From Erysipelotrichia bacterium (GTDB lineage Bacteria > Bacillota_I > Bacilli_A > Erysipelotrichales > Erysipelotrichaceae): a DNA stretch of 45,317 nucleotides. Shown here one piece after another: positions 9,852 through 37,385 of the stretch. The DNA lies in assembly GCA_012799935.1 (NCBI GenBank), contig JAAZKG010000089.1:1-45317 (forward strand). The letters run 5' to 3'. How positions within the stretch are numbered: position 1 is the stretch's first letter; the number at the start of each line of letters is the position of its first letter. The notes beneath the pieces were generated by a model. That model was not told the origin of the DNA and made no database searches. It saw only the letters and a list, made by a program, of their open reading frames with translations. The position numbers and the translations under genes were made by a program.

Positions 9852-11375
9852 ATGAAAAGAAAAAAAGAATTAATTGCAATATTTATAAGCCTTATTTTAT
9901 CTATTTTGATTGTTATGTTTTTTCCTTCAAACATTGGAAAACAAGCACTCATCTCTAATATCAACTTGAGTGAAGAAAAATCACACATTGCTCAAAAAAT
10001 TGAATATGTATCATTGGAGCCTATTGATGTAATAAAGGTTTATCATAAGGGTAATTTGATAGGTATTATCTATGATAGTGAACTCATTCAAAATGCTATT
10101 GACATGGAAGAGGCAAAATTAGCTGGAACAAAGTTTGAAGGCTATGAGATTGATATTAGTAGTGAACTATATATTTTAAAAGAGAAATCTTTCTGGAAAT
10201 ACGAAAATAAAGATCAAGAAATATTATCGTATATTATTGATAACAACCTTTTAGTTGTTCAGGCAGTTAGGATAGATATTGTTAAGGAAAATGATATAGT
10301 CGATACGATATATGTAAAGTCTATCGAAGAGTTTTCTAATGCTTTAAGAAGATTTGCTTTATGTTTTATTGATGAAAAGACTTATGTTGCTTTAGAAAAT
10401 CATGAAAAGATTCTGGATTTAACCACTTATGGAAGTCAGGATAAAAATATTTACATTGAAGAAACTATTAAAGCAACTCCTACTGGAGCTAGCACTAAAG
10501 AACTTTTTGCTGATGAAGAGGCAATCTTTATGTACTTATGTTATGGGCGAGATTATCAATTGGAATACTATACAGTTGTTGAATATGATACTATCAGTGG
10601 TGTTGCTTCAAAAACAGGTTTATTAGCTAAACAGCTTTTGGCAATAAATGATGATATTGATAATATAAACCAAGCTTTGATAGTAGGCCAACAATTAATT
10701 GTTACTTATTTTACTCCACCAATAACAGTAGTTGTGGAGCAACAACGTTTAGTGCAAGAAGTAACATATCCAACAGAAAGTACATATACTTTTGATATGA
10801 CATTAAAAAGAGGAGAGGTAGTTGAAGATGTTGCTCCTGCAACAGGATATAACGATGCTACTTACACGGATATTTACGTAAATGGCATCCTTACAAGTTA
10901 TCGTCAAGATAGCGTGGTGGTAAGGGTTGAACCAACAGTTGGCCAATATAGATATAATATGCAAGATTATAGTGATCGAGGAGTATTTTTCTCATTACCT
11001 GTAAGAAACCCGGTTATTACCTGTGACTTTTATTGTTATGCCAATCATCATGGTTGTGACTTTATTGATAGATATAATCGTTATGGTGATGTTTTAGCTG
11101 TTGCTGATGGCACAGTTATTAGAAAAGGTTATAACTCAACTATGGGATACTATTATTACATCAATCATAGTAATGGTATTATAGCTAGGTATTTACATAT
11201 GAAGACACCAGGATATAAAGAAATTGGAGATATTGTTTTAAGAGGAGAAGTAATTGGACAAATTGGAAATACTGGGCGCAGTACTGGACCGCACTTAGAT
11301 ATTGGTATTTATATTGATGGAAAACTTATTGATCCATGTTGGGTTTTGCCTTGTGAACAGGCCTCTTATTGGTAA
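9852..11375 (+). CDS. Membrane-anchored LysM / G5-like / M23 peptidase-fold protein
   Basis: The 507-residue protein has an N-terminal signal anchor (MKRKKELIAIFISLILSILI). A long unassigned region follows, then a LysM-like segment (YTVVEYDTISGVASKTGLLA), a G5-like module (about residues 295-365) and a C-terminal LytM/M23 domain. In the M23 domain the first zinc-ligand motif is intact (HHGCD) and the YLHM histidine is present. The usual HxH motif reads PHLDIGI, so the last zinc ligand is Asp483 instead of His. The domain may bind metal differently or be inactive. Upstream start codons exist in the frame, but this ATG falls one base after the dnaB stop with GAGGG in front. The end overlaps walJ by one base (TAATG). 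Confidence 0.8.
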   Translation: MKRKKELIAIFISLILSILIVMFFPSNIGKQALISNINLSEEKSHIAQKIEYVSLEPIDVIKVYHKGNLIGIIYDSELIQNAIDMEEAKLAGTKFEGYEIDISSELYILKEKSFWKYENKDQEILSYIIDNNLLVVQAVRIDIVKENDIVDTIYVKSIEEFSNALRRFALCFIDEKTYVALENHEKILDLTTYGSQDKNIYIEETIKATPTGASTKELFADEEAIFMYLCYGRDYQLEYYTVVEYDTISGVASKTGLLAKQLLAINDDIDNINQALIVGQQLIVTYFTPPITVVVEQQRLVQEVTYPTESTYTFDMTLKRGEVVEDVAPATGYNDATYTDIYVNGILTSYRQDSVVVRVEPTVGQYRYNMQDYSDRGVFFSLPVRNPVITCDFYCYANHHGCDFIDRYNRYGDVLAVADGTVIRKGYNSTMGYYYYINHSNGIIARYLHMKTPGYKEIGDIVLRGEVIGQIGNTGRSTGPHLDIGIYIDGKLIDPCWVLPCEQASYW

Positions 11376-12118
11376 TGAAATATTATATTTTAGCTAGCGG
11401 TTCAAAAGGTAATTGTACAGTTGTAACAAGTAAAAATACTTCCATCATGATTGATTGTGGGATAACACAGAAATATTTAAAAGAGTCATTTGGTAAAATA
11501 GGACTAAAATATCAAGATTTGGATGGAGTGTTAATTACTCATAGTCATAGTGACCATTTAAATAATACTAAGATCATTAAAGACTTAAATGTTTATTCTC
11601 CTTTTAAAATTAGTGGTTTAAATAAAAATCATCTCATTAAACCAATAGAAGTATTTACGATAAAAGATTTAGATATTTTGGCAATACCGCTTTCTCATGA
11701 TACTGATATTACGGTGGGCTATGTTATCTTTGATGGGCAGGAAACTTTAGTAATGGTAACAGATACAGGTTATTTATCTGATAAAAATATAAAGATTATT
11801 AAAAATGCTAATTACTATATAATTGAAAGTAATCATGATACAGAAATGTTACTGAATACAATGAGACCAAAATATGTTAAAAACTGCATTATATCTGATT
11901 ATGGTCATTTGTCCAATGAAGACTGTGGATATGTTTTAGCTCAGTGCATTAATGAGGACACAAAGGAAATTGTCTTGGCTCATATTTCTCAAGAAGCAAA
12001 TAATACAAAGCTAGCTTATGATACAGTAATTGATATACTTGATAAAAAAGAAATTGATTATCAGAATATTAAAATTATAGCAGCAAAACAATTTGAAATA
12101 ATTGAAGGTGGATCTTAA
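11375..12118 (+). CDS. walJ: WalJ/YycJ-like metallo-beta-lactamase fold hydrolase
   Basis: The 247-residue product has the metallo-beta-lactamase metal motif THSHSDHLNN near residue 60. Further family residues are the His in LSHDTDITVG, the Asp in VTDTGYLS and SNHDTEML, and the late His in VLAHISQEANN. It begins MKYYILASGSKGNCTVV, typical of YycJ. In Bacilli the gene usually travels with the WalRK cell-wall regulator and is linked to DNA end processing and fork events. Here it is coupled to the M23-fold gene by a TAATG overlap. No walR or walK is visible in this window. A TTG six bases upstream is a less likely start. The stop codon lies inside a terminator hairpin. Confidence 0.88.
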   Translation: MKYYILASGSKGNCTVVTSKNTSIMIDCGITQKYLKESFGKIGLKYQDLDGVLITHSHSDHLNNTKIIKDLNVYSPFKISGLNKNHLIKPIEVFTIKDLDILAIPLSHDTDITVGYVIFDGQETLVMVTDTGYLSDKNIKIIKNANYYIIESNHDTEMLLNTMRPKYVKNCIISDYGHLSNEDCGYVLAQCINEDTKEIVLAHISQEANNTKLAYDTVIDILDKKEIDYQNIKIIAAKQFEIIEGGS

Positions 12119-12131
12119 GATTCACTTTTTT
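12105..12131 (+). terminator. Intrinsic terminator overlapping the end of walJ
   Basis: A 10-bp stem (12105-12114 with 12119-12128, two G-T pairs) with loop TTAA leads into a T run. The loop is the walJ stop codon region, so the terminator is embedded in the coding end. Confidence 0.7.
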
Positions 12132-12150
12132 AATTGCACTGTTTTTAATA

Positions 12151-12159
12151 TGATATACT
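12151..12159 (+). promoter_or_regulatory. Extended -10 promoter for mnmG
   Basis: TG, one base, then TATACT at 12154-12159 forms an extended -10 without a good -35. The expected transcript start is only about 17 bases from the mnmG ATG, giving a very short leader. Confidence 0.45.
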
Positions 12160-12165
12160 TATTGA

Positions 12166-12172
12166 GTAGGAG
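12166..12172 (+). promoter_or_regulatory. Ribosome binding site that decides the mnmG start
   Basis: GTAGGAG lies 10-11 bases before the ATG at 12183. It selects this start over the in-frame upstream extension that would run through the walJ terminator. Confidence 0.6.
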
Positions 12173-12182
12173 ATTAATAAGT

Positions 12183-14039
12183 ATGGTAGATGTAATTGTA
12201 GTAGGAGCAGGACATGCAGGGTGTGAAGCAGCACTAGCCACCAGCAGGCTAGGTTTTAATACTGTTTTATGCACTATAGATAAAAACTTTACTGCTTCTT
12301 TACCATGCAATCCTTCTATAGGTGGACCAGCAAAAGGAGTAGTTGTTAGAGAAATTGATGCTTTGGGTGGTCAAATGGCAAAAATAGCTGATGAGACAGC
12401 TTTACAACTTAAAATGTTAAATACTACAAAGGGACCAGGAGTAAGAAGTTTAAGAATTCAAGCGGATAAGATTTTATATAAAAAAAGGATGTTGGAAGTT
12501 TTAGAAAAACAGAAAAACTTAACACTTAAAGAGTGTATGGTTGAAGATATTATTGTTAAAGATAATACCGTTAAGGGAGTATCAACAGAGACAGGAGAGG
12601 TAATAGAAAGCAAGATTGTAATATTGACTACGGGAACTTTTATGAATTCCAAGATTATGGTTTCTAATCATATAACTTTTCAAGGTCCAGACAATCTAAG
12701 GACATCAAAAAATCTTTCTCAAAAATTGAAAGATTTAGGTTTTAGAATTTTTAGATTAAAAACAGGTACTCCAGCTAGAATAAAAACAGATTCTATCGAT
12801 TTTTCATGTGCGACACTTGAACCAGGAAATACCGAAACTGAAGCATTTTCTTTTGAAACAGAAAAAGTACTGCCATTAAAAGAGCAGGTACCTTGTTATT
12901 TGATATACACTCAACCTGAAACTCATCAAATAATACAAGAAAACTTACATAAATCAAGTATGTATTCAGGGGTTGTCGAGGGAATAGGAACTAGATATTG
13001 CCCTTCCGTGGAAGATAAAATAGTTAGGTTTGCTGATAAGGAAAGACATCAGATTTTCCTAGAACCAGAATCGTTGTCATTAGATACAACCTATGTCCAA
13101 GGGTTTTCAACTAGTATGCCCTATGATGTTCAAGACAGAATGCTTTATTCTTTACCTGGTTTTAAAAATCATGTCGTTGATAAATATGCCTATGCTATTG
13201 AGTATGATGCAATTGACCCATTACAGTTAAAGCCATCTTTAGAAACAAAAGTTGTTGAAAATTTATTTTGTGCTGGTCAAATTAATGGCACTTCAGGTTA
13301 TGAAGAAGCAGCTGGTCAAGGATTGATGGCGGGTATTAATGCTATTAATAAATTAAAAGGTAAACAACCGTTGATTTTAAGAAGAGATGAAGCCTATATT
13401 GGAGTTATGATTGATGATTTAGTTACCAAAGGAACTAAAGAACCATATCGCTTATTAACCAGTAGAGCAGAATATCGTTTATTGTTGAGACATGATAATG
13501 CTGATCAAAGATTGACAAATTATGGTTATGAAGCAGGTTTGATTAGTGAGGAAAGATATCAAAAGTTTGTTTCAAAAGTAAAACAATTAGAATACTATAA
13601 ACAATTGTTAAAAGAAACAAAGGTTAATAATAGTCCACAGTTATTAGATTATTTAATTAAAAAAGGTTATGAAGATAATAAAAACCAAGGTAATTGCCTT
13701 GATCTAATTAAAAGACCTAATGTGGAAACAAAAACAATTTGTCAGCTACACGATATTGAAATAGATGAAAAGCTGGCTAATCAGTTAGATATAGAAATTA
13801 AATTTGAGGGTTATATTTCTAAAACTAGAAGAGAAGCGGCTAATTTAATCAGATTAGAGAAACAACCACTACCATATGATTTGGATTATGATAAGATAGT
13901 CAATTTATCAATTGAAGCAAAAGAAAAGCTTTTGAAAGTAAGACCGCTAACTATTGGTCAAGCTTCAAGAATTTCTGGAGTAAATCCAGCTGATATTATT
14001 ACTATCCAAATCTATTTAAAACAATCTAAAACAGTTTAA
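12183..14039 (+). CDS. mnmG: tRNA uridine-5-carboxymethylaminomethyl modification enzyme MnmG
   Basis: This FAD enzyme works with MnmE to make cmnm5U34 in the wobble position of certain tRNAs. The 618-residue product starts with the FAD-binding VDVIVVGAGHAGCEAAL. It contains PCNPSIGGPAKG, LNTTKGPGVRSLR, the family signature GPRYCPS-like block (here GTRYCPSVEDK) and AGQINGTSGYEEAAGQG. The C-terminal tRNA/MnmE-binding helices follow, including the conserved LTSRAEYRLLLRHDNAD. The reading frame is open further upstream, but the ATG at 12183 has TAGGAG before it and gives the normal N-terminus. It has its own promoter and terminator. No mnmE or rsmG is next to it here. Confidence 0.95.
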   Translation: MVDVIVVGAGHAGCEAALATSRLGFNTVLCTIDKNFTASLPCNPSIGGPAKGVVVREIDALGGQMAKIADETALQLKMLNTTKGPGVRSLRIQADKILYKKRMLEVLEKQKNLTLKECMVEDIIVKDNTVKGVSTETGEVIESKIVILTTGTFMNSKIMVSNHITFQGPDNLRTSKNLSQKLKDLGFRIFRLKTGTPARIKTDSIDFSCATLEPGNTETEAFSFETEKVLPLKEQVPCYLIYTQPETHQIIQENLHKSSMYSGVVEGIGTRYCPSVEDKIVRFADKERHQIFLEPESLSLDTTYVQGFSTSMPYDVQDRMLYSLPGFKNHVVDKYAYAIEYDAIDPLQLKPSLETKVVENLFCAGQINGTSGYEEAAGQGLMAGINAINKLKGKQPLILRRDEAYIGVMIDDLVTKGTKEPYRLLTSRAEYRLLLRHDNADQRLTNYGYEAGLISEERYQKFVSKVKQLEYYKQLLKETKVNNSPQLLDYLIKKGYEDNKNQGNCLDLIKRPNVETKTICQLHDIEIDEKLANQLDIEIKFEGYISKTRREAANLIRLEKQPLPYDLDYDKIVNLSIEAKEKLLKVRPLTIGQASRISGVNPADIITIQIYLKQSKTV

Positions 14040-14051
14040 TAGAATAAATAA

Positions 14052-14084
14052 AAGGAATTGGTCTTAACCTAATTCCTTATTTTT
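14052..14084 (+). terminator. Intrinsic terminator after mnmG
   Basis: A 10-bp stem AAGGAATTGG paired with CTAATTCCTT, followed by ATTTTT. It lies 12 bases after the mnmG stop. Confidence 0.75.
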
Positions 14085-14149
14085 CTGACAACTCTTATTA
14101 CGATAGAAAATCATATTACATGTGGGGAATAAAACATTAAATTTATATT

Positions 14150-15334
14150 TTAAATGCGATAAAGTTTTTTTATTTGGGTTATGTCATCTAGCACAGCAAT
14201 AATTTCGCTAGATTGATAAAACATCCCTTTTTTTTGGTTTCCAAATTTAGTTAAAATCCCATATCCAATAGCTCTATCAATAAGTTTATTTGCTCCTCTT
14301 AAAGTTAAATGAAGTTTTTCCTTTATTAAATTTGTATTTATGACTGGTTGTTCTATGAGCAAGTATATTAATTTCCAAATAGTTGAAGTTTTTCTTTCAT
14401 TTATGATATTTTCCCAATTTTGAATAATTGAAGAAATTTTTGCAGAAACATTTTCGCCAATTGCTAAGGATAATTCAATGGCTTTAAAAACTTGTTCAAT
14501 AATTGGAAGTGGATTTCCTTCTTGATACGCCTTTAATGAATTTAAATAACTATCAAGATTATTTAAAAGTCCAGCGGATATTGGCAGTGCAATTGTATGT
14601 AGTACTCCATCATCTTTCAAAGATTTATGGATAAGTGTTCTTCCAGTACGACCATTTCCATCAACGAAAGGATGAATTGTTTCAAATTGAGCATGTAGAA
14701 TTGCTGCCTTAACAATAGGATTTACATCTATTCTTTTTGAGTAAATAACCAAATCATTCATATAATATTCCAATTTAGAATGATGCACAGGAACAAATGT
14801 AGCTTGGTGAGGCGAATAGCTTGTGCCACCAATCCAAACTGGTTCATTTCTATATTCGCCAGCTAAATTTCCTAGGGAAGATTCCATAAGGGTTTTGTGG
14901 ATGTGTAGAATTGTTTCATTTGATATTTTTTCAGAAATATTCAATGCTTTTTTCATTGCGAAAACATTACCTGCAATTAATAAGGCATTAGTGGGACCTT
15001 TATTAGTCAATTCTGCTAAAGCAATATTTCGAATGCTAGATGTCAAATTTTCAATTTGTGAGCTAGCTGCTGATTCACTTCTCAGTAAAACACTTGGAAA
15101 AGAATACCCTTTTTGAGTTTGAAGCAAGTCAAATCTGCCAATATTAATCATTAAATCAGAAATTGCTACATCAAGATCTGCGGGAAGGATAATATTTTTT
15201 TCAGCAATAGTATTGGGTATAGAAGACTGATAAGTAGGAAGAATTTTGCTTTTAGAACTTCTTGATAAACCTTCAAGTTCAACACTACTTTTCCAAGGAA
15301 TGGTTTCGTATTTTAATGGATTCCAATTAGTCAT
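14150..15334 (-). CDS. Fic family protein with built-in inhibitory motif
   Basis: Fic proteins usually transfer AMP from ATP to hydroxyl groups of target proteins. The 394-residue product has the full active-site motif HPFVDGNGRTGR at residues 221-232. An N-terminal inhibitory helix contains SSQIEN (91-96), matching the class II [S/T]xxxE[G/N] rule, so the enzyme is probably auto-inhibited until relieved. The N-terminus (about 10-110) matches the Fic_N domain, and the C-terminal part (about 315-394) looks like a winged helix. It is monocistronic with a strong promoter and no separate antitoxin gene. Such genes are often acquired horizontally and are scattered among strains. The ribosome binding site is AAGGAG. 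Confidence 0.9.
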   Translation of the reverse strand: MTNWNPLKYETIPWKSSVELEGLSRSSKSKILPTYQSSIPNTIAEKNIILPADLDVAISDLMINIGRFDLLQTQKGYSFPSVLLRSESAASSQIENLTSSIRNIALAELTNKGPTNALLIAGNVFAMKKALNISEKISNETILHIHKTLMESSLGNLAGEYRNEPVWIGGTSYSPHQATFVPVHHSKLEYYMNDLVIYSKRIDVNPIVKAAILHAQFETIHPFVDGNGRTGRTLIHKSLKDDGVLHTIALPISAGLLNNLDSYLNSLKAYQEGNPLPIIEQVFKAIELSLAIGENVSAKISSIIQNWENIINERKTSTIWKLIYLLIEQPVINTNLIKEKLHLTLRGANKLIDRAIGYGILTKFGNQKKGMFYQSSEIIAVLDDITQIKKLYRI

Positions 15335-15400
15335 TTCTGCTTTCTCTCCTTTCCAAAAAAACTGAAAGATGGTTATAGTTCTTTTTGTCTCTTTGAGAGA

Positions 15401-15428
15401 ATTATAACATTTTTTCTTTTGAAGTCAA
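15401..15428 (-). promoter_or_regulatory. Strong promoter of the Fic gene
   Basis: On the minus strand TTGACT (15423-15428), 16 bases, then TATAAT (15401-15406), which is also an extended -10 (TGT before it). The leader is about 60 bases. Confidence 0.75.
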
Positions 15429-15432
15429 TATA

Positions 15433-15464
15433 AAAAGGAACTGAAATTAGTTTCAGTTCCTTTT
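15433..15464 (-). terminator. Terminator of the fhs-fchA-folD-folT operon
   Basis: A perfect 14-bp stem AAAAGGAACTGAAA / TTTCAGTTCCTTTT with a 4-base loop, followed on the minus strand by T residues. It ends the folate operon just upstream of the Fic promoter. Its symmetry would let it act in both directions. Confidence 0.8.
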
Positions 15465-15503
15465 AACTGCAGAAAAGAGTTATGACTAGTTTTATTATCT
15501 AAC

Positions 15504-16025
15504 TTATTTAATTGTTTTTTTAATAAGAGCTATTGTTTTTGGTAGCGCCAGAGCATAAATGATAGCTAATAATATTCCAGCAGCAATCTTTAAGGGAATA
15601 GAGCCAAAAACTAAAACAGTAGAATAATAACCATATATTTTAGCATCGATAAATAAAGCTAAGGTATTTAAGGTTGTTACTAAAAGGGCTGAGAAAATAG
15701 CAATCATAGAAATTGTTTTGAAATCTAACTGTTCTTTTCTTTTATCAGCAATAAAACCTACTGTCAGCCCACTAAGAGCATGTGGCAAAACCCACAACAG
15801 AGTAGTAGCAGTAAAACCATATCCTGAAAATAGTATTTGATATAAAAAACTTCCAATAAAACCGACCATAAAGCCTTCAAGTTTACCAAGTAGTAACCCA
15901 GCAACTAAAACAGGAAAAGCTTCAAAAGTAAATTTGAAGTTTAATAGTTTTACAGGAGTTAATATTGATAAAATAACTTTCATCGCTATTAACATTGACA
16001 TGGTAGTTAATCGTTTAGTTGTCAT
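15504..16025 (-). CDS. folT: ECF transporter S component, probably folate-specific (FolT)
   Basis: The 173-residue protein has about six membrane helices and the energy-coupling-factor S-component layout: MTTKRLTTMSMLIAMKVILS, then the loop FEAFPVLVAGLLLGKLEGF and PHALSGLTVGFIADK. It would bind a vitamin and use a shared EcfAA'T motor for uptake; no motor genes are in this window. The assignment to folate rests mainly on its place as the last gene after fhs, fchA and folD. An ATG at 16052 gives a longer reading frame but has no ribosome binding site. The ATG at 16025 has TAAGGAA eight bases upstream and is preferred. Confidence 0.78.
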   Translation of the reverse strand: MTTKRLTTMSMLIAMKVILSILTPVKLLNFKFTFEAFPVLVAGLLLGKLEGFMVGFIGSFLYQILFSGYGFTATTLLWVLPHALSGLTVGFIADKRKEQLDFKTISMIAIFSALLVTTLNTLALFIDAKIYGYYSTVLVFGSIPLKIAAGILLAIIYALALPKTIALIKKTIK

Positions 16026-16053
16026 AATTAGTTCCTTACAAGTAAATATCATA

Positions 16054-16905
16054 TCATAACTTTCTCTTGGCTGAAATGGCTAAATTATTTAATAATACCG
16101 CAATAGTTACAGAACCTACCCCTTTTGGTACTGGAGAAATATTTTCAACAATATTTATCACTTCATCAAATAATACATCACCACATAATTTACCCTTTTT
16201 GTGATTATAATTAATTCCTACATCTATAACTGTTTGATTACTGCTAAAGTAGTCTTTATTTAATGTTTCCATTTGTCCACTACAAGCAATGATAATGTCA
16301 GCTTGTTTTGTTAAAGCAGGAATATTTTCGCTTTTTGAATGACAGATAGTAACTGTACAGTTTTCATTTAAAAGCAAGATACTAACAGGTTTACCAACTA
16401 TTAAGCTTCTACCAATAACCACCGCTTTTTTGCCAACTAAAGGAATGTTGTAGTACTTTAGTATTTCAATGACTGCTTGAGCGGTACAAGGAGCAAAGTA
16501 TTTGTTGGTATTGCTAAAAAGTGAAGATAAGGAGATATCACTACTGCCATCAATATCTTTAGTTGGGTTTAGATAGTTTCTAGCTTTTTCATTATCCAAA
16601 TGTTTTGGTAAAGGTCGAAGTATTAAAATACCATCAATATCATTGTCATTATTTAACGAATCTAAAATGTGATAAAACTTTTCATATTCAATATCTTTAT
16701 CTAAGATAATTGATTTGACATTAATTTCTAGTTGTTGGCAGCGTTTAGTTGCTGCTTTTTCATAAGAGATATCATCAGCATTTTCGCCAACTCTTACTAT
16801 AGCTAAAGTAGCTTTTTTCCCATGTATTTTAAGTATTTTAACTGTTTTTCTAGTTTGTTCACTAATATGATCACTTACTGCTTTACCATATAAAATGTTA
16901 GCCAT
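16054..16905 (-). CDS. folD: Methylene-THF dehydrogenase FolD, cyclohydrolase residues substituted
   Basis: FolD oxidises 5,10-methylene-THF to methenyl-THF and normally also hydrolyses that to 10-formyl-THF. The 283-residue product has the family blocks YEKAATKRCQQL (Tyr48), RPLPKHLD, NPTKDIDG, AVVIGRSLIVGKP and the C-terminal PVPKGVGSVT. The lysine that acts in the cyclohydrolase step (Lys54 of E. coli) aligns with Ala52 here. The catalytic Gln98 of the usual QLPLP motif aligns with Leu in ILILRPLP. The dehydrogenase part, including the Rossmann segment, looks intact. It overlaps fchA by one base (TAATG), and fchA could supply the missing cyclohydrolase step. Confidence 0.9.
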   Translation of the reverse strand: MANILYGKAVSDHISEQTRKTVKILKIHGKKATLAIVRVGENADDISYEKAATKRCQQLEINVKSIILDKDIEYEKFYHILDSLNNDNDIDGILILRPLPKHLDNEKARNYLNPTKDIDGSSDISLSSLFSNTNKYFAPCTAQAVIEILKYYNIPLVGKKAVVIGRSLIVGKPVSILLLNENCTVTICHSKSENIPALTKQADIIIACSGQMETLNKDYFSSNQTVIDVGINYNHKKGKLCGDVLFDEVINIVENISPVPKGVGSVTIAVLLNNLAISAKRKL

Positions 16906-17516
16906 TATATCATCTCCTTATTGATATTTTCGAAAATAGTTTTAGCCAATTTCCCATATTTTTCTACCAACTTATCAACTTGATTGTTTCTTTCTTGGGC
17001 AAATTCTTTATTTTTCATTAACTTAGTATTAACTTTAACATTAATACTACAACCATATAAAGCCCCGTAAGCTAGCATTGCTGCAGTAGCAATATCAGAG
17101 ATAGCTAATTTGGCTCCGATTTGTCCATATCGTTGTAATAATTCTATTACTTGACAGATATCTTTTAAGATAATTAGTGGACCACTACTAGCATCAACTA
17201 AGCACTTTTCTAGAATTTGCTCTCTGTTAGGATCTTTCTTATCTAATGAGTAAGCTTTTGATAGTGGCAAAAAACTTTCAGCATCAAAATTAATATCTTC
17301 TAAAAGTTTAATTCGTAGATTTTCTGATTTGATATTTAGTTGTTTAATCTCTTCTTCAACATCATTATATCTTTTTTTACCAATAGTTAAAGAAGCTACC
17401 ATACTACCAAGTGATGAAGATAGAGCTCCAACAAGAGCACATACTCCTCCACCTCCTGGAATTGGTGCATTACTAGATAAGTCAATTGTAAATTGTTCAA
17501 TAGTTTGTTTATACAT
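16905..17516 (-). CDS. fchA: Cyclodeaminase/cyclohydrolase family protein FchA
   Basis: The 203-residue helical protein has the hallmark glycine-rich motif PIPGGGGVCALVGALSSSL near residue 20, followed by GSMVASLTIGKKRY. The family includes formiminotetrahydrofolate cyclodeaminase and methenyl-tetrahydrofolate cyclohydrolase. With fhs and folD on either side and no histidine or purine degradation genes nearby, the cyclohydrolase role is more likely. Two ATGs are nine bases apart. The upstream one abuts its own AAAGGA, so the downstream one (17514-17516) is preferred. The start lies 12 bases after the fhs stop. The stop overlaps the folD start. Confidence 0.85.
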   Translation of the reverse strand: MYKQTIEQFTIDLSSNAPIPGGGGVCALVGALSSSLGSMVASLTIGKKRYNDVEEEIKQLNIKSENLRIKLLEDINFDAESFLPLSKAYSLDKKDPNREQILEKCLVDASSGPLIILKDICQVIELLQRYGQIGAKLAISDIATAAMLAYGALYGCSINVKVNTKLMKNKEFAQERNNQVDKLVEKYGKLAKTIFENINKEMI

Positions 17517-17528
17517 GTTTTTCATCCT

Positions 17529-19199
17529 TTAAAATAGCCCAGTAATTATACCACGCTCATCAACATCGATATTTTCAGCTGCCGGAACTTTTGGTAGCCC
17601 TGGCATGGTCATAATATCTCCAGTTAAAGCAACAATGAAACCAGCTCCTGATGATACTTTTAACTCTCTTATAGTAATAGTAAAGTCTTTTGGTGCTGCC
17701 AGTTTTTTGGGATCATCAGAAAATGAATATTGGGTTTTGGCCATACAAATAGGAAGATTAGAAAATCCTAATTCTTCAAGTTGTTGCAGTTGTTTTAAAG
17801 CGTTTGAGGTAAGTTCTATTTTTTCAGCATGATAAATTTTAGTAGCTATGCTATTTAATTTATTGTAAATTGAATCATCTAAATCATAAGCAAACTTAAA
17901 TTGATTTGATTTTTCAGCAAGTTTTATTACCTCATTAGCTAGTTTAATACCGCCATCGGAACCTTTTGAAAACACTTCACTTAAAGCAACATTAACATTT
18001 AGCTCTTTACATTTTTCTTCAATTAGTTTTAATTCTGCTTCACTATCATTAGGGAATTTATTAATAGCGACAACCACAGGAAGCTTAAAGACATTTTTAA
18101 TGTTATCGATATGTTGTAAAAGGTTTGGCAAACCCTTTTCTAAAGCTTTTAAATTTTCTTGATTTAAATCTTTTTTATCCATCCCACCATGATTTTTTAG
18201 GGCTCGACAAGTAGCAACAATTACTATTGCAGCAGGTTTTAAATCAGCAATACGACATTTGATATCTAAGAATTTTTCTGCTCCTAAGTCAGCCCCAAAC
18301 CCAGCTTCTGTGACAGTGTAATCAGCAAGTTTTAAAGCTAATTTTGTTGCAATTAAACTATTACAACCATGAGCAATATTGGCAAATGGGCCACCATGGA
18401 CAAAGGCTGGTGTCGTTTCTAAAGTTTGAACTAAGTTAGGTTTTAAAGCATCTTTTAATAAAGTGGCCATTGCACCATGGGCTTTAAGTTTTTCAGCTTT
18501 GATGGGATTGCCATCATAAGTGTAACCAATTGTAATATTACCAAGTCTTTGTTTTAAGTCGGTAATATTATTGCTTAAACATAAAATTGCCATCACTTCA
18601 CTGGCAACCGTAATATCAAAGCCATCTTCTCTTGGTGTGCCATCACTTCTACTACCTAAACCACAGATAATATTTCTTAATTGGCGATCATTTATATCAA
18701 TAGCTCTTTTCCAGCTGATTCTTCTAGGATCAATGTTTAAACTATTTCCTTGTTGAATATGATTATCAATCATGGCAGCTAGCAAATTGTTTGCAGCGGA
18801 TACAGCATGGAAATCACCAGTAAAATGTAGGTTGATATCTTCCATTGGAACTACCTGAGCATAACCTCCTCCAGCTGCTCCTCCTTTTATACCAAAAACT
18901 GGTCCCAATGATGGTTCCCTTAAAGTTAACATGGTTTTTTTACCTAGTTTGGTTAAAGCATCAGCTAAACCAACGGTAGTGGTAGTTTTTCCTTCACCAG
19001 CTGAAGTAGGGTTAATAGCAGTAACTAAAATAAGTTTACCATTTTCTTTATCTTTTAAATCTTCCAGCAAATGATAGTCAATTTTGGCTTTGAAGTTGCC
19101 ATATTGTTCGATATATTTTTTATCAATATTTACTTTTTTCGCAATTTCTAAAATATGTTTTTTCTGGCAATTTTGAGCTATTTGAATATCGGTTAGCAT
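17529..19199 (-). CDS. fhs: Formate-tetrahydrofolate ligase
   Basis: The enzyme joins formate to THF using ATP, giving 10-formyl-THF for purines and fMet, or running in reverse to recover ATP. The 556-residue length is normal. It has the P-loop-like [19 protein letters not shown] (about residues 66-84), [43 protein letters not shown] and [14 protein letters not shown]. The C-terminus has [19 protein letters not shown]. It heads the folate operon with a GGGAGG ribosome binding site. The complete set of motifs suggests an active enzyme. Confidence 0.97.
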
Positions 19200-19237
19200 T
19201 ATTAATTCCCTCCCTTATTTAGTTAGGCCTTTTATTT

Positions 19238-19243
19238 ATTATA
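19238..19243 (-). promoter_or_regulatory. -10 box for the fhs operon
   Basis: A perfect TATAAT on the minus strand 38 bases before the fhs start. The -35 region is weak (TTTTCA at 17-base spacing). Confidence 0.45.
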
Positions 19244-19259
19244 ATGTTTTTTCATGTAT

Positions 19260-19287
19260 TTGAAAATAACAAGAAAGATAGTAATAT
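19260..19287 (+). promoter_or_regulatory. Possible promoter of the threonine aldolase gene
   Basis: TTGAAA (19260-19265) and TAATAT (19282-19287) with 16-base spacing. The match is fair only, but the position is right for the gene starting at 19314. Confidence 0.35.
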
Positions 19288-19313
19288 AGATATTAATTAA
19301 AGAGGTATAGGTT

Positions 19314-20339
19314 ATGTTGTATTTTTCTAATGATTATAGTCAAGGTGCTCATCCAGAAGTGCTAAAGCATTTGGTTGAAACAAATATGGTTTCTGTTAAT
19401 GGTTATGGAGAAGATATTTTTTGTGCTAGAGCTAAAGAAAAAATAAAAGAGGCTATTGCTTCTCCAAAAGCAGAAGTTTTCTTTTTAGTTAGCGGGACTC
19501 AAACCAACCAGGTAGTTATTAACAGTATGTTACAGAAACATCAAGGTGTAATTTCAGCTGATACTGGTCATATTGCCACTCATGAAGCTGGAGCAATTGA
19601 ATTTACTGGCAATAAAGTTCTAGCAATCAAACATACAGATGGGAAAATCAATAGTGATGATTTGAAAGAATATTTGAAGAATTTTTATAGTGATGAAAAT
19701 CATGAACATATGGTCTATCCAGGAATGGTTTATATTTCATTTTCAACTGAGTATGGAACTATTTATTATAAAGATGAATTGGTTTCTTTACATAATGTTT
19801 GCCAAGAGTATCAAATTCCTTTGTATATCGATGGTGCAAGATTGGGATATGGTATTATGGCAGAAGATAGTGATGTGACTTTAAAAGATATTGCGGAAAA
19901 TTGTGATGTTTTTTACATTGGTGGTACCAAAGTAGGGGCTTTATGTGGTGAAGCAGTAGTATTTACTAAAAACAATGTTCCTGTCTGTTTTACAACTTTA
20001 ATAAAAAAACATGGGGCTTTACTGTCAAAGGGTAGGCTTTTAGGGGTTCAGTTTGAGACATTATTTACTGATAACTTATATTTAAAAATAAGTAAACATG
20101 CAGTTGAGATGGCTACTTATTTAAGAAAAGGACTAGAAGAAAAAGGTTATAAGTTTTTTATTGAAAATAAAACAAACCAAACTTTCATTATTTTAGAAAA
20201 TGAGAAATTAAAGAAATTACAAGAAAAGGTAGTTGTCTCTTTTTGGGAAAAATATGATGAAAATCAGACTGTAATTCGTCTGGCAACTTGCTGGGCAACT
20301 CAAAAAGAAGATGTTGTAAAGCTATTAAAGATTATGTAA
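19314..20339 (+). CDS. ltaE: Low-specificity L-threonine aldolase
   Basis: This PLP enzyme cleaves threonine or allo-threonine to glycine and acetaldehyde. The 341-residue product has the aldolase fold I pattern: FSNDYSQGAHPEVL at the start, VSGTQTNQVV, the HIATHEAGAIE block and YIDGARLGYG. The PLP lysine is in YIGGTKVGALCGEAV (about residue 203). It lies divergent from the fhs operon, and glycine production would feed one-carbon metabolism, so the two may be linked functionally. It precedes pgk by about 75 bases, which contain a separate promoter. The ribosome binding site is AGAGGT. Confidence 0.9.
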   Translation: MLYFSNDYSQGAHPEVLKHLVETNMVSVNGYGEDIFCARAKEKIKEAIASPKAEVFFLVSGTQTNQVVINSMLQKHQGVISADTGHIATHEAGAIEFTGNKVLAIKHTDGKINSDDLKEYLKNFYSDENHEHMVYPGMVYISFSTEYGTIYYKDELVSLHNVCQEYQIPLYIDGARLGYGIMAEDSDVTLKDIAENCDVFYIGGTKVGALCGEAVVFTKNNVPVCFTTLIKKHGALLSKGRLLGVQFETLFTDNLYLKISKHAVEMATYLRKGLEEKGYKFFIENKTNQTFIILENEKLKKLQEKVVVSFWEKYDENQTVIRLATCWATQKEDVVKLLKIM

Positions 20340-20376
20340 ATTGTTTCACAAACTGTTTTTAAATAGTATTGAAAAG

Positions 20377-20385
20377 TGTTATAAT
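20377..20385 (+). promoter_or_regulatory. Extended -10 promoter for pgk-tpiA
   Basis: TG, one base, then TATAAT at 20380-20385 forms a perfect extended -10. No good -35 is seen. The pgk start is 28 bases downstream, behind AAGGAGG. Confidence 0.55.
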
Positions 20386-20413
20386 TTTATTGTATCTAAA
20401 AGGAGGTTTTGTT

Positions 20414-21631
20414 ATGTCTAAACGTACAGTTAGAGATTTAGATGTTAAAGGTAAAAAGGTCTTAGTCAGAGTTGACTTTAACGTTCCTCAATCAGCAGGA
20501 GTTATCACAGATGACAATCGTATTGTGGCTGCTTTACCAACAATTAATTATTTATTAGAAAAAGGTGCTAAGGTTATTTTATTCTCACACTTGGGAAAAG
20601 TTGATCATAAAGATCCAGAAAAAACAGCTAGTGACAAGGCTAAAAACAATATGTCTATCGTCGCAATTAAATTACAGGAATATTTGCCAAATGCTAAGGT
20701 TACATTTGTTGATGCAACTAGAGGCGAAAAACTCGAGGTAGCGATTAATGAATTAACTGAAGGCAATATAGTACTTATGCAAAATACACGTTATGAAGCA
20801 GGTGAAAGCAAAAATGATCCTGAACTGTCAGCTTATTGGGCATCACTGGCTGATTTATATGTTTCTGATGCTTTTGGTTCAGTACATAGAGCACATGCAT
20901 CAACAGTTGGTGTGGCTAGTTTACTTCCAAATGCGGTAGGTTTTTTAATTGAAAAAGAATTAGAATTTTTAGGAAATGCAGTTGAGCATCCAGTTAGACC
21001 ATTTGTTGCTATTTTAGGTGGTGCTAAAGTTGCTGATAAACTAAAAGTTATCGATAATTTATTGGAAAAATGTGACACCTTAATTATCGGTGGTGGTATG
21101 GCTTACACTTTTTTAAAAGCTCAAGGCTTGGAAGTTGGAGAGTCATTAGTTGACTTAGAACAGGTTGAATACTGTGGTGAAATGATTAAAAAGGCTGAAA
21201 AGTTAAAAAAGAAATTATTACTTCCTGTTGATACTGTTGTTGCTGATAGTTTCCCTAATCCTATTGATGGGGAAATTGAAATTAAAACAGTTGATTCAGA
21301 TGCTATTCCAACTGATATGCAAGGCTTAGACATTGGTGAAAAAACTGCTGATTTATTTGCTGCAGAAGTTAAAAAGGCAAAGACTGTTGTTTGGAATGGA
21401 CCAATGGGTGTTTTTGAAAATCCACTGTTAGCTAAAGGTACAAATGCTATTGCTCAGGCTTTAACTGAAACAGATGGAACAACAATTATTGGTGGTGGTG
21501 ATAGCGCTGCTGCTATTAAACAGTTAGGTTACGCTGATAAGGTTAGTCATGTTTCTACTGGTGGAGGAGCTTCACTAGAATTTTTAGAAGGTAATGGTTT
21601 ACCAGGCGTAGATGTTATAAATGAAATTTAA
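20414..21631 (+). CDS. pgk: Phosphoglycerate kinase
   Basis: This glycolytic enzyme transfers phosphate from 1,3-bisphosphoglycerate to ADP. The 405-residue product has the signature [10 protein letters not shown] and the substrate-binding LFSHLGK and QNTRYEAGE. The nucleotide-binding parts are [22 protein letters not shown] and [13 protein letters not shown]. It ends [13 protein letters not shown] with the usual tail. A longer reading frame begins upstream, but this ATG has a full AAGGAGG and gives the normal [14 protein letters not shown] start. It is followed after 15 bases by tpiA, forming a two-gene glycolytic unit. Confidence 0.97.
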
Positions 21632-21646
21632 GAAGAGGGGGATAAA

Positions 21647-22396
21647 ATGAGAAAACCTATTATCGTTGGTAACTGGAAGATGAACAAAACTATTGCTGAA
21701 GCTGTGGATTTCATTTCAGCAGTTGATCCTTATCTTGATGGTGTTAATACTGCAGATTTTGGGGTAGCAACATCATATCTTGCTTTAGAAAGTTCAATTA
21801 AAAATGCTAAAAACTTAATCATAGCAGCTGAAAATTGTCATTTTGAAAATAGTGGTGCTTATACAGGTGAAGTATCTGTGCCAATGCTAGAAGAAATTGG
21901 TTTAAAATGGTGTATTGTTGGGCACTCTGAAAGAAGAGAGATGTTTGGTGATACTGATGAAACCGTTAATAAAAAAGTTAAAAAATTAATTGAAGCTGGT
22001 ATGACTCCAATTATGTGTTGTGGTGAATCACTAGAAACATTTGAAGCTGGTGACACCGAAAGTTGGGTTAGAGGACAAATTGAAGCTGGCTTAGCTGGTG
22101 TTTGTGGTAAAGATGTAGCGAAGATGGTTATTGCTTATGAACCAATCTGGGCTATTGGAACTGGAAAAAGCGCTACTAAAGAAATTGCTCAGGATACTTG
22201 TGCAATTGTCAGGGACCAAGTTAAAAAGATGTATGGACAAGAAGTAGCCGAAAGTGTCAGAATTCAATATGGCGGAAGTGTTAAACCAGATAATATTGCT
22301 GCCTATATGGCAGAAAAAGACATCGATGGTGCCTTAATTGGTGGTGCTTCTTTAAAAGTTGATTCATTTAAAGAAATTATCGATGCTGTAAAATAA
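21647..22396 (+). CDS. tpiA: Triosephosphate isomerase
   Basis: The enzyme interconverts dihydroxyacetone phosphate and glyceraldehyde 3-phosphate. At 249 residues it is of standard size. The N-terminal VGNWKMNKT carries Asn and the catalytic Lys, CIVGHSERRE carries the catalytic His, and AYEPIWAIGTGKSAT carries the catalytic Glu and loop 6. The phosphate-binding RIQYGGSVKPDN and GALIGGASLK follow. It is co-transcribed with pgk and ends at a strong terminator shared with the convergent icd operon. The ribosome binding site is AAGAGGGGG. Confidence 0.97.
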   Translation: MRKPIIVGNWKMNKTIAEAVDFISAVDPYLDGVNTADFGVATSYLALESSIKNAKNLIIAAENCHFENSGAYTGEVSVPMLEEIGLKWCIVGHSERREMFGDTDETVNKKVKKLIEAGMTPIMCCGESLETFEAGDTESWVRGQIEAGLAGVCGKDVAKMVIAYEPIWAIGTGKSATKEIAQDTCAIVRDQVKKMYGQEVAESVRIQYGGSVKPDNIAAYMAEKDIDGALIGGASLKVDSFKEIIDAVK

Positions 22397-22419
22397 GGTA
22401 TATTATTTTAGAAACAGAT

Positions 22420-22458
22420 AAAAAAGAAGCGAAAAATTCAAATCAAGCTTCTTTTTTT
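22420..22458 (+). terminator. Intrinsic terminator between tpiA and icd
   Basis: A stem AAAAAGAAGC / GCTTCTTTTT with a 16-base loop, followed by T residues. Its A-rich and T-rich sides allow it to work for both convergent units. Confidence 0.65.
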
Positions 22459-22491
22459 ATGTTGGTAATTCTTAAATGTTTTCAATAACTG

Positions 22492-23496
22492 CTATTGTTT
22501 TCCAATATTATTAATAATGTTTTGTGTATATTGAGTTGTTGATGCTTTACCACCTAAGTCCACTGTACAATTTTCTAAGTCATTAAAGGTATGGTTGATT
22601 GCATTTCTAATTAATACTGCTTCTTTTTCAAAACCTAGGTGTTCTAACATCATACAAGCGCTTAGAATAAATGCAGTAGGATTGGCAATATTTTTATTGG
22701 CGATATCTAAAGCTGAACCATGCACAGCTTCAAAGATTGCATATTCTTCATTCATGTTTACACTTGGCAACAAACCTAAGCCACCAATTAAACCACTTGT
22801 GAGATCAGATATGATATCTCCATATAAATTAGGCATAACAAGTACATCGTAGTTTTCAGGTTTCATAACTAATTGCATACATGCATTATCGACAATTAAG
22901 TCATTTGAAATAATGGAAGGGTAATCTTCTTTTATTTTATTAAATTCCTCTAAAAATAATCCATCAGTCATTTTTAAGATATTTGCCTTATGAACACAGG
23001 TAACTTTTCTTCTGTTGTTTTTTATTGCGTATTCAAAAGCTAGTTTAATGATCTTTCTTGAAGCTTTTCTTGTAATTTTTTTAATGGCAATAAATTCATC
23101 ATCATTTATCTTTTTCTCTTCACCGATATATAAATCTTCAGTATTTTCTCTAAATACTACTAAATCAATATCACTGTATCTTGATTTAATCTGTTTGTAT
23201 GATTTTGCTGGTCTTATATTTGCATAAAGATCAAACATAATTCTTAATTGAACATTTATACTCCTAAAACCTTTGCCTATTGGTGTAGAAATAGGAGCTT
23301 TTAAGGCTATTTTATTTTTTTTAAGTGAATCGATTGATTCTTGTGATATTAATATTCCATCTTTCTCGTATAAGATTTGTCCAATGTCATATTTTTCAAA
23401 TATTATTGGTATATTTAAATGATTAAAAATTTGAATAACACTATTAGTTATTTCAGGGCCTATTCCATCCCCTTCAAATAATGTTACATATTTCAT
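22492..23496 (-). CDS. icd: NAD-dependent isocitrate dehydrogenase (short, tetrameric-type family)
   Basis: The 334-residue enzyme belongs to the isocitrate/isopropylmalate dehydrogenase family. It has [11 protein letters not shown] at the start, the substrate-phosphate region FRSINVQLR and [17 protein letters not shown]. The catalytic Lys lies in [11 protein letters not shown], and metal-binding Asp residues in [11 protein letters not shown]. The cofactor loop reads [18 protein letters not shown], with Asp where NADP enzymes have Lys-Tyr, so NAD is the likely cofactor. Its ATG overlaps the citrate synthase TGA (ATGA), which implies tight coupling. A 3-isopropylmalate role is unlikely, as no leucine genes are nearby. 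Confidence 0.88.
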
Positions 23497-24809
23497 TCTA
23501 CTATTTCTCCCACATATTGACCTGCAGGTCTAATAATTCTTCCGCTGTTTATTTTTTCTTCTATATTATGAGCCAGCCAACCAACAGCTCTGCTGGCAAC
23601 AAAAAGAGGACTGAATAAATCTTCTGGAATCTTTAACATATCGTATATAAGTCCGCTATAGAAATCAACATTAGCACAGATATTAATTCCTTTTACCTCT
23701 TTTATATAATTACATGCGATATCTTCAAATCTTTTATAAAATTCAAAACAATCAATTTTATCTGACATTTCAGCAACTTCAGTGGCCTGCTTTTTAAGTA
23801 AGACACACCTAGGGTCTGATATTGTGTATACTGCATGCCCTAGACCATATACCAGACCTTTTTTATCAAAGAAATCTTTATTGAGTATTCTCTTGATAAT
23901 ATTTAAAATTTCTTCATCACTTGCATTTAGTCCAACTTCTTTAATTACTTCATCCATCATACGTTTACAAGTAGTATTAGCTCCACCATGTTTTGGCCCC
24001 TTTAAAGATCCTACAGCAGCAGCAAAAGATGAATAAATGTCTGTATCAGTAGAAGACACTACAAGACTTGCAAAGGTGGAGTTATTTCCAGCTCCGTGAT
24101 CGGCATGTACTACCATCAACAAATCTAGAATTTTAACTTCTTCTTCATTATAATTATTTTCTCCCCTAAGCAGGTATAAAATACTTTCAGCGATACATAA
24201 ATCATGTCTTATAGGATGAATTAACAGGCTCTGATTATTGATTAGATGTTTTTTAGCAGCATAAGAATAAACTATTATTGCAGGTAGTTTTGCGACTATT
24301 GATAATCCCTGTTTAAGCATACTTTCAACACTACAATCATCAGGATTGTCATCATATGAATACAGCAATAGTAAGGCACCTTGAATCTTATTCATAATAT
24401 CAATAGAAGGCGCTTTGAGTATGTTGGTAGCTAAATAGCCTTCAGGAAGATCATATTTACTTCTTAGTTCTTTTTTAAAGATTGTCAGCTCTTTTTTATT
24501 TGGTAGGTATCCAAAAAGTAATAAAAAACAAATTTCTTCATAACCAGTTTGATTACTTGATGAAACCTTTTCATAAAGTGTCTTTAACGGTATACCTCGA
24601 TAGTATAATTCTCCAGGTATATCTACTTTATTTCCTTTTTTATCTCTAGCATATCCAACAACATCTGCTATTCTTGTCAGACCAATTAAAACACCAGTGC
24701 CATCTTCATTTCTCAATCCTTTTTTTACATTATATTTTTTGTATAACTCATTTGGGATTTTGTTTTCCCTAATATACTTTTCGAAAATAGTTAATATTGT
24801 CTTATTCAT
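23493..24809 (-). CDS. gltA: Citrate synthase (citrate/2-methylcitrate synthase family)
   Basis: The enzyme condenses oxaloacetate and acetyl-CoA. The 438-residue product has the three catalytic residues: His in GPKHGGANTTC, His in GLGHAVYTISDPR and Asp in CANVDFYSGLIY. The N-terminal extension with GLRNEDGTGVLIGLTRIADV and the following PGELYYRGIPL places it in the larger citrate synthase group common in anaerobic Firmicutes. HADHGAGNNSTFAS is also typical. It heads the gltA-icd pair and is divergent from aconitase, sharing a 110-base control region. The ribosome binding site is TGAGGT. A methylcitrate role is possible but the neighbours favour citrate. Confidence 0.92.
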   Translation of the reverse strand: MNKTILTIFEKYIRENKIPNELYKKYNVKKGLRNEDGTGVLIGLTRIADVVGYARDKKGNKVDIPGELYYRGIPLKTLYEKVSSSNQTGYEEICFLLLFGYLPNKKELTIFKKELRSKYDLPEGYLATNILKAPSIDIMNKIQGALLLLYSYDDNPDDCSVESMLKQGLSIVAKLPAIIVYSYAAKKHLINNQSLLIHPIRHDLCIAESILYLLRGENNYNEEEVKILDLLMVVHADHGAGNNSTFASLVVSSTDTDIYSSFAAAVGSLKGPKHGGANTTCKRMMDEVIKEVGLNASDEEILNIIKRILNKDFFDKKGLVYGLGHAVYTISDPRCVLLKKQATEVAEMSDKIDCFEFYKRFEDIACNYIKEVKGINICANVDFYSGLIYDMLKIPEDLFSPLFVASRAVGWLAHNIEEKINSGRIIRPAGQYVGEIVE

Positions 24810-24827
24810 AGCAAGTACCTCATTGAA

Positions 24828-24856
24828 AGTTTAACCCAAGTTATTTTTTTACGCAA
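24828..24856 (-). promoter_or_regulatory. Promoter of gltA-icd
   Basis: On the minus strand TTGCGT (24851-24856), exactly 17 bases, then TAAACT (24828-24833). It is about 20 bases before the gltA start and back-to-back with the aconitase promoter. Confidence 0.55.
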
Positions 24857-24865
24857 TACTTTGAG

Positions 24866-24894
24866 TTTAAAAGACCTCTTTAATATGCTATAAT
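24866..24894 (+). promoter_or_regulatory. Extended -10 promoter of the aconitase gene
   Basis: TGC followed by TATAAT (24889-24894) makes an extended -10, with TTTAAA (24866-24871) as a weak -35 at 17 bases. The aconitase ATG is 25 bases downstream. Confidence 0.55.
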
Positions 24895-24919
24895 CTTTTA
24901 CATTAAAGGGGAGATTACT

Positions 24920-36242: not shown

Positions 36243-37385
36243 TTAGTTTTCCTTTCTGATTTCTAATAATTTGTTTTTTAATTCGTTTTCTAATTTTCTC
36301 AATTCAATTTCAGCAGCATTTCTTCTGATTCTACCATCAGATTGAATTCTTAATACTTCATCCAAAGTTTCAATTAGAGATCTATTAGTATATTGTAATG
36401 TTTCAATTTCAACAATACTTCTTTCACTTGCTTGTGCTGTCTCAATTGTACCTTGCTTTAATGACTCAGCATTTTTCTTCAATAATTCATTGGTCATCTT
36501 ATCAACAGCAGCTTCTGCATCAATAGCTTCTTTTGCATGAGATAAACCAAGAGCAATAACCATTTGTGATCTCCATAAAGGAATAGTATTGACTAAGGTA
36601 GATTGAATTTTTTCTGCCATTAAAGTGTCATTGTTTTGAATTAATCTAATTTGAGGTGACATTTGAACAGCAATCATTCTAGTCATTTCCAAATCATGAA
36701 TTTTCTTTTCAAAACGATTGATAAGTTGCGCATAATCATTTGCTTTTTGAGCATCTTCAACCAAACCTGTTTCTTGGGCAATAGCTTTTAATTTAGGAAG
36801 TTCCAAATTAACTGCTTGTTCCAATTTCTTTTGCCCAGCAACGATATACATTGTAAGTTCTTTTTTGTTTATTTCGTTTTTATCGTAAAGTTCATCTAAA
36901 ATAGCGATATCTTTTAAGAGTGTAATTTGATGTTCTTCTAATAAAGTGCAAATCTTATTAACATTAATATCGACTTTATCATAATTAGCTTTTAAAGCTG
37001 CTATTTTATTTTTCCCTTTTCGAAAAAAACCTTTTAATCCTTTTGATTCTCCTTCTGCATCAAAATCTTTTAATTCGACAACCAAATCAGAAATCATACC
37101 GCCAATTTGACCTAAGTCTTTAGTTCTAATATTTTCTAAAGTAGTTGTTGAGAAATTAGAGATTTTCTTTTGTGAATTAGCTCCATAGCTCATAATAACA
37201 TCAGTATCTGTAATATCGATTTTTTCTGCAAATTCATCAACCATTTTAATTTCTTCTTCAGATAAAGTTGATAAATCTAGTTTTGCTGGAACAATTTTTT
37301 CTGTTTCAATGGTTTCAGTTACTACTTGTTGTTGAGCCTGTTCATTTTTTGGGTCTAAAGTTAAGACAATTTTTTCTTGATCCAT
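36243..37385 (-). CDS. TelA/YaaN family (toxic anion resistance) protein
   Basis: The 380-residue, largely helical cytoplasmic protein has the TelA family core. Its signature is RMIAVQMSPQIRLIQNNDTL, followed by LVNTIPLWRSQMVIALGLSH. An earlier conserved block is FRKGKNKIAALKANYDKV. Family members (TelA, YaaN, YceH) were linked to tellurite or antibiotic stress, but their molecular action is unknown. In Bacillus subtilis yaaN is next to xpaC. Here the two are about 4 kb apart on the same strand. The N-terminal 40 residues are charged and probably disordered. The ribosome binding site is GGAGG. Confidence 0.88.
   Translation of the reverse strand: MDQEKIVLTLDPKNEQAQQQVVTETIETEKIVPAKLDLSTLSEEEIKMVDEFAEKIDITDTDVIMSYGANSQKKISNFSTTTLENIRTKDLGQIGGMISDLVVELKDFDAEGESKGLKGFFRKGKNKIAALKANYDKVDINVNKICTLLEEHQITLLKDIAILDELYDKNEINKKELTMYIVAGQKKLEQAVNLELPKLKAIAQETGLVEDAQKANDYAQLINRFEKKIHDLEMTRMIAVQMSPQIRLIQNNDTLMAEKIQSTLVNTIPLWRSQMVIALGLSHAKEAIDAEAAVDKMTNELLKKNAESLKQGTIETAQASERSIVEIETLQYTNRSLIETLDEVLRIQSDGRIRRNAAEIELRKLENELKNKLLEIRKEN

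Follow-up and report, generated by a model that had tools for sequence, protein, structure and literature searches.

Which protein carries out the cyclohydrolase step of folate metabolism in a bacterium whose FolD lacks the residues for it? The question arises from a group of folate genes in an Erysipelotrichia bacterium (assembly GCA_012799935.1, contig JAAZKG010000089.1), of which the stretch analysed here, the window, covers 45,317 nucleotides. The host is a gut-type bacterium with a genome of 1.54 Mb (83.76% complete). An original prediction, made from the sequence, regarded FolD and its neighbour FchA as a split bifunctional enzyme, in which FchA has taken over the missing step.

The separation of dehydrogenase and cyclohydrolase is itself not new, as it is known from C. 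perfringens, C. formicoaceticum, A. woodii and P. productus (the last presumably now placed in Blautia), and the window operon is a further, ordinary member of this known kind, whose evolutionary pattern can be put to the test. Aluri and co-workers reportedly found the C. perfringens FolD to be monofunctional, both FolD and FchA being needed to replace the FolD of E. coli. A passage of PMC7219735 credits the separate FchA to Aluri et al. (2016; Microbiology 162:145), and it is by the title of that paper, not by sequence, that FolD, FchA and Fhs of C. perfringens are likened to the same three activities in the window. According to excerpts of the respective papers, the two activities reside in one bifunctional protein in M. 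thermoacetica and in monofunctional proteins in C. formicoaceticum and A. woodii (PMC9124964), P. productus has a monofunctional NADP enzyme (PMC6443876), and fhs1, fchA and folD of A. woodii lie in one cluster (PMC3315566). C. formicoaceticum, A. woodii and P. productus thus have separate proteins for the two steps, as is proposed here for the window.

Residues and pocket of the window FolD

The called ORFs form a compact minus-strand set in the order fhs-fchA-folD-folT (Table 1), with 3 bases between fhs and fchA and 1 base between folD and the folT-like gene. The folD ATG is preceded by AAGGAG. For fchA the called start is at 17525; the second ATG, at 17516, was the start in the original prediction and, being preceded by AAAGGA, may in our judgement be better placed. 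The one-base overlap of fchA and folD that had been described is present, as the junction TAATG. It had also been read as a sign that the step moved to FchA; such a shift is supported, but the overlap alone is weak evidence for it, and the argument is drawn instead from the conserved fchA-folD linkage and the genome-wide co-occurrence described below.

Table 1. Features of the folate gene set (window positions; activities are predicted)
Feature	Position	Strand	Assignment	Basis
folT-like	15504..16052	-	folate-family ECF transporter S component	TIGR04518 71.3 bits, cut-off 60
folD	16054..16905	-	methylenetetrahydrofolate dehydrogenase, Lys54/Gln98-less type, 283 aa	PF00763 + PF02882, residues vs E. 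coli, fold model
Arg97 codon of folD	16615..16617	-	E. coli Leu99 position	alignment, codon counted from sequence
Leu96 codon of folD	16618..16620	-	E. coli Gln98 position	alignment, codon counted from sequence
Ala52 codon of folD	16750..16752	-	E. coli Lys54 position	alignment, codon counted from sequence
fchA	16905..17525	-	predicted methenyltetrahydrofolate cyclohydrolase, FTCD_C family, 206 aa	PF04961, NF045657, 7vg4, TAATG junction
fhs	17529..19199	-	formate--tetrahydrofolate ligase, 556 aa	PF01268 901.3 bits; NF010030 over cut-off

The product of folD belongs to the FolD family, both of its domains scoring over the cut-off (PF00763 96.3 bits, PF02882 187.3 bits). Aligned with the FolD of E. 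coli MG1655, it has Tyr48 for Tyr50, Ala52 for Lys54, Leu96 for Gln98, Arg97 for Leu99 and Asp119 for Asp121. The residues that mark a bifunctional FolD, Lys54 in the YxxxK motif and Gln98, are replaced exactly as had been predicted, and the dehydrogenase portion is indeed intact: Tyr48 and Asp119 are kept, and the NAD(P) half retains the dinucleotide motif GRSxIVGKP and the PVPxGVG loop. The alignment register is not in doubt, because E. coli residues 30-125 are aligned with a single one-residue gap that lies ahead of the motifs. Misalignment as the cause of the differences was ruled out, the motif blocks being free of gaps.

An AlphaFold model (43 sequences; pLDDT 96.6) matched FolD structures over its whole length, the best PDB match being C. 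jejuni FolD (TM 0.96). The window protein shares with the bifunctional FolDs of E. coli, C. jejuni and human (MTHFD1/2) the fold (TM about 0.9-0.96, among the matches listed), Tyr50, Asp121 and the NAD(P)-binding motif, but it lacks Lys54 and Gln98 and is changed at 38, 40, 47, 51, 99, 225 and 265 (E. coli numbers). PDB entry 1edz, which we take to be yeast MTD1, a monofunctional NAD dehydrogenase of the FolD family that carries out the dehydrogenase step only, is remote from it in sequence (E 2.5e-9). The two lost residues matter in E. coli: in the mutant data excerpted from PMC5688156, K54N left cyclohydrolase undetectable with about 19% of the dehydrogenase activity, and Q98H left about 1% and about 8%, respectively. 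With a Lys54-less FolD encoded beside fchA, the pair has the form of a monofunctional FolD-type dehydrogenase with an FchA partner. Very probably the window FolD acts solely as an NAD(P)-dependent methylene-THF dehydrogenase and the neighbouring FchA performs the cyclohydrolase step. The enzyme would not be split in the sense first proposed, as FolD is not cut in two; FchA is of a different family (PF04961), replacing the activity.

The pocket around the lost residues has changed as a whole. Between 135 FolD rows without Lys54 and Gln98 and 105 Lys-bearing rows there are near-complete switches: Leu40 gives way to Arg, Ser47 to Asp and Val51 to Glu (99% each) and Leu99 to Arg (96%; 129/135 rows), and positions 38, 225 and 265 are also switched. 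Part of PMC5688156 describes a Q98H structure in which V38, L40, L96 and H98 surround a swung-out Tyr50. Since Arg, Glu and Arg at 40, 51 and 99 are conserved in 96-99% of the rows without Lys54 and Gln98, the pocket looks rebuilt for one job rather than decayed. Families f13 (Arg, 8/8) and f27 (Arg, 1/1) and genus g50 (Arg or Lys, 2/2), where Gln98 is lost as well, likewise have a basic residue at 99. Where Lys54 alone is lost (13 rows), Gln is retained at 98 and followed by Leu, Met, Val or Ile, and two Lys-bearing rows with Glu98 retain Leu99. The co-conserved set Arg40, Asp47, Glu51 and Arg99 is possibly a new observation.

The same conservation could be taken to mean that FolD is still bifunctional, Arg38, Glu49 and Arg97 (window numbers) having replaced Lys54 and Gln98, with FchA adding capacity or serving another reaction. 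This is improbable given the tight co-occurrence of lysine loss with FchA and the C. perfringens enzyme, which is said to be monofunctional. The K54N result in the excerpted text of PMC5688156, where substitution of the lysine abolished cyclohydrolase activity, likewise speaks against it.

The FchA protein and its family

The fchA product matches PF04961 with 169.6 bits; its sole NCBIfam match, NF045657, scores 155.3 bits, under the curated 275. The best PDB match is a methenyl-THF cyclohydrolase, 7vg4 (E 2.9e-32), presumably the FchA of Methylobacterium. Methylotrophs had been named as the precedent for FchA, but nearest to the window pair are the cases known from clostridia and acetogens; in methylotrophs, the dehydrogenase partner of FchA is MtdA, not a FolD.

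PF04961 also contains the formimino-THF cyclodeaminases, and two structures named as such, 1o5h and 1tt9, match the window FchA, so its product could instead serve histidine or purine breakdown, the place beside folD being incidental. The fchA-folD pairing is conserved, which argues against such an accident, and the FTCD_C domain stands alone in its own genome, where no FTCD_N was found (83.76% complete). Moreover, three residues in the numbering of the window FchA, 27 (Gly/Ser), 138 (Ser/Asn; the window has Ala) and 167 (Thr/Leu), set 115 linked FchAs apart from 10 homologues found in Lys-keeping genomes, and in the tree the two sets are mostly separate, with weak deep support. A cyclodeaminase in the window is thus very improbable, and a stand-alone cyclohydrolase is the preferred reading.

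Loss of Lys54 and presence of FchA across genomes

The order survey covered 244 genomes, with PF00763 in 237 and PF04961 in 66. Neither residue is present in any of the 50 FolD ORFs adjacent to fchA (47 genomes, the window's among them), and all 30 non-adjacent FolDs compared alongside (30 genomes) keep both, as does E. coli; residue loss beside fchA is not chance. The state of Lys54 is known for 177 genomes, a set made up of order genomes, the weakest-scoring FolDs, unlinked cases and a class-level sample. Among the FchA-bearing ones 72 lost the lysine and 22 kept it, against 1 and 82 of those without FchA; in the order alone (141 genomes) the counts are 61 and 4 against 1 and 75. The Fisher p of 2e-28 for this association ignores kinship and is not to be taken at face value. 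FolD was read in 65 of the 66 FchA-bearing order genomes (G135 has a fragment without the motif) and in 76 of the 178 without FchA, a non-random choice of top-scoring, weakest-scoring and some intermediate ones. The class sample has gaps at G270, G352 and G371 (no FolD row) and G432 (a fragment without residue 54), and the named genomes G546, G555 and G556, all with PF04961, lie outside the genome list and the count.

A co-occurrence survey of this kind had been proposed with the original prediction, and in it the Lys54-less FolD tracks FchA, in 72/73 genomes with known state and in 79/80 named relatives. Together with the linkage, this supports the proposal that FchA probably takes the missing step. 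The same FolD residues in genomes without fchA, which would count against that proposal, were looked for and met twice, both times in drafts: G224 (89% complete, 430 contigs), whose congeners G101 and G111 have FchA, and the genome of locus L158 (Coriobacteriales, 1.4 Mb), where a whole-genome search found no PF04961. These two cases would fit the idea that spontaneous hydrolysis of methenyl-THF suffices, FchA is not needed and Lys54 is lost by drift under weak selection. According to part of PMC5688156, the hydrolysis can indeed be spontaneous and E. coli K54N survives, but it grows very slowly. As 82 of the 83 genomes without FchA kept the lysine, Lys54 appears to be under selection when FchA is missing, and drift is the least probable of the explanations considered.

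The named relatives are the best 80 of 565 loci; the peptide patterns used to find them had been modelled on Lys-less FolDs, so that their being 80/80 Lys-less and Gln-less does not describe a random sample. An fchA ORF lies directly upstream of folD in 69 of them, a frame-shifted one in L134, and the remaining 10 genomes, searched whole, have PF04961 elsewhere in 9. In several of these 9, the PF04961 protein groups with homologues of formiminotransferase-bearing genomes and not with linked FchA, hence the partner of FolD is uncertain there. The 519-aa ORF of L134 was considered as an FchA-FolD fusion and rejected, as the FchA match covers only residues 9-152 of a relative and then leaves the frame; either fchA is frame-shifted here or the assembly is at fault. 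The Blautia loci L141, L144, L183 and L185 are Lys-less with fchA.

A few other loci depart from the common form. At L236 (G543, family f27, 0.9 Mb) fchA and folD form a pair that looks independent, the FolD being strongly divergent (YRDD); Fhs was not found. At L264 (G176:C4:230000-232700) the FolD match falls into two pieces (profile 2-73 and 70-283) and the ORF search gave no FolD; it is an interrupted gene or an assembly fault. L275 and L276 (G358 and G292, family f10; genomes of about 0.9-1.0 Mb) keep the YKQD pocket but no longer the GRS dinucleotide motif (GNGITSNQ), possibly a mirror case of cyclohydrolase without dehydrogenase.

The 22 genomes that have an FchA homologue and keep Lys54 might seem to contradict the pattern. 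The search for FTCD_N and Fhs covered 80 out of 100 intended genomes (left out were 17 FchA-bearing order genomes, G356, G433 and G506), and all 19 keepers tested have a formiminotransferase, which dissolves the contradiction; as it accompanies them, their FchA homologues probably serve histidine breakdown. Formiminotransferase is absent from 44 tested FchA-bearing genomes, and in all 43 of known state Lys54 is lost, from which it follows that where FchA stands alone, FolD is expected to be Lys-less. Twelve genomes with FTCD_N also lost Lys54. Six of them have a second FchA (G101, G110, G111, G158, G190, G221) and six have one PF04961 protein (G056, G095, G097, G222, G396, G408). In G056, G095 and G222 the sole PF04961 protein found sits near the formiminotransferase, so that the step must there fall to a protein of the cyclodeaminase type, to spontaneous hydrolysis or to activity remaining in FolD. 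In family f22 (L237, L239 and L240, in G396, G408 and G432), FchA and Fhs adjoin with a formiminotransferase gene nearby, and the Lys-less FolD lies elsewhere; its motif in G396 and G408 is YILD.

A tree of 196 FolDs, with the motif columns excluded and 18 of the 80 named loci included, requires no fewer than 5 changes in the Lys state; this minimum is blind to gain versus loss. Loss is clearly nested among Lys-bearing relatives twice, in G142/G237 (YRQD) and in the g24/g20 group (YLQD/YFQD). The former sit among FchA-less members of genus g7, which also has Lys-less, fchA-bearing species. As their FchA groups within the linked FchAs (SH-aLRT 84), gain of fchA probably preceded loss of the lysine. 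The Lys54 position is Arg in both, a mild change that may have kept some activity.

Four independent pairs on supported branches had FchA differing in the same way as the Lys state in 3.5 on average and in the opposite way in 0; the pairs are too few for significance on their own. Taking instead the pairs with a difference in FchA, 6 in number, the Lys state differed the same way in 2.6 and not at all in 3.4 (averages), and never the opposite way. Because of these 3.4 pairs and the 22 FchA-bearing keepers, FchA presence alone does not predict loss of the lysine.

The repeated loss of Lys54 tied to an FchA-family protein is possibly new: among papers in PubMed Central, a search outside which most subscription journals lie, none was recognised as treating the FolD/FchA split as an evolutionary series. 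It would be a clean case of a bifunctional enzyme shedding one of its activities where a second protein is able to provide it, and whether Lys54 is kept or lost offers a simple sequence rule for predicting the need for FchA. Such a rule is of use, as annotation can readily credit the cyclohydrolase reaction to the wrong gene: all 25 NCBIfam matches listed for the window FolD are named bifunctional, each below its cut-off, and a passage of PMC10103890 states that most acetogens have both fchA and folD, the one found beside the other, folD still being called bifunctional. As carolacton binding to FolD needs Lys54 (from part of PMC5688156), Lys-less FolDs are predicted to be unresponsive to inhibitors of this type. 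We give even chances to a joint proposal, by which FolD lost the lysine in parallel several times in lineages of Bacilli that have an FchA-family protein, a lone cyclodeaminase-type protein (e.g., in G056, G095 and G222) took over the cyclohydrolase step, loss of Lys and Gln goes with the new pocket Arg40/Asp47/Glu51/Arg99, a basic residue at 99 recurring in f13, f27 and g50, and such FolDs are insensitive to carolacton.

Likely use of the operon and neighbouring genes

From the observed residues, gene order and co-occurrence we infer the activities of FolD, FchA and Fhs and the direction of flow. Fhs would join formate and THF to 10-formyl-THF, FchA would interconvert 10-formyl-THF and methenyl-THF, in the operon towards the latter, and FolD would reduce methenyl-THF to methylene-THF with NAD(P), by which the operon would link formate to methylene-THF. 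The FolT-like protein is expected to import folate. SHMT is present in the window's genome, and MetF (PF02219) was found in 0/6 genomes of its genus, with the control positive in 11/14. The operon is thus likely to supply one-carbon units for serine/glycine, purines and thymidylate, not for acetogenesis, given that the genus has SHMT and no detected MetF. To judge by the drafts, it would, unlike its counterparts in the acetogens, not belong to a complete Wood-Ljungdahl methyl branch.

A sigma-70-like site with 10/12 matches lies upstream of fhs (19266-19238), such sites being about as common as in shuffles (24 vs 19.0, sd 4.9). Riboswitches were sought, with no Rfam match at the gathering threshold in 10000-25000 and none at E<=1 in 19150-19400; no tRNAs were found in the window.

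Downstream of the folT-like gene, by about 170 bases and on the same strand, lies a gene for a Fic/DOC-family protein (PF02661; 14150-15334, minus strand), and a TelA-family (toxic anion resistance) protein is encoded at 36243-37385 on the minus strand. Divergent from fhs is a gene for a beta-eliminating lyase family protein (PF01212; 19314-20339, plus strand), which we take to be threonine-aldolase-like and which could be a supplier of glycine. At 22492-26827, genes for an isocitrate/isopropylmalate dehydrogenase family protein and citrate synthase overlap by four bases and are divergent from an aconitase gene; together they make up a short oxidative branch of the TCA cycle, in a genome that is small.
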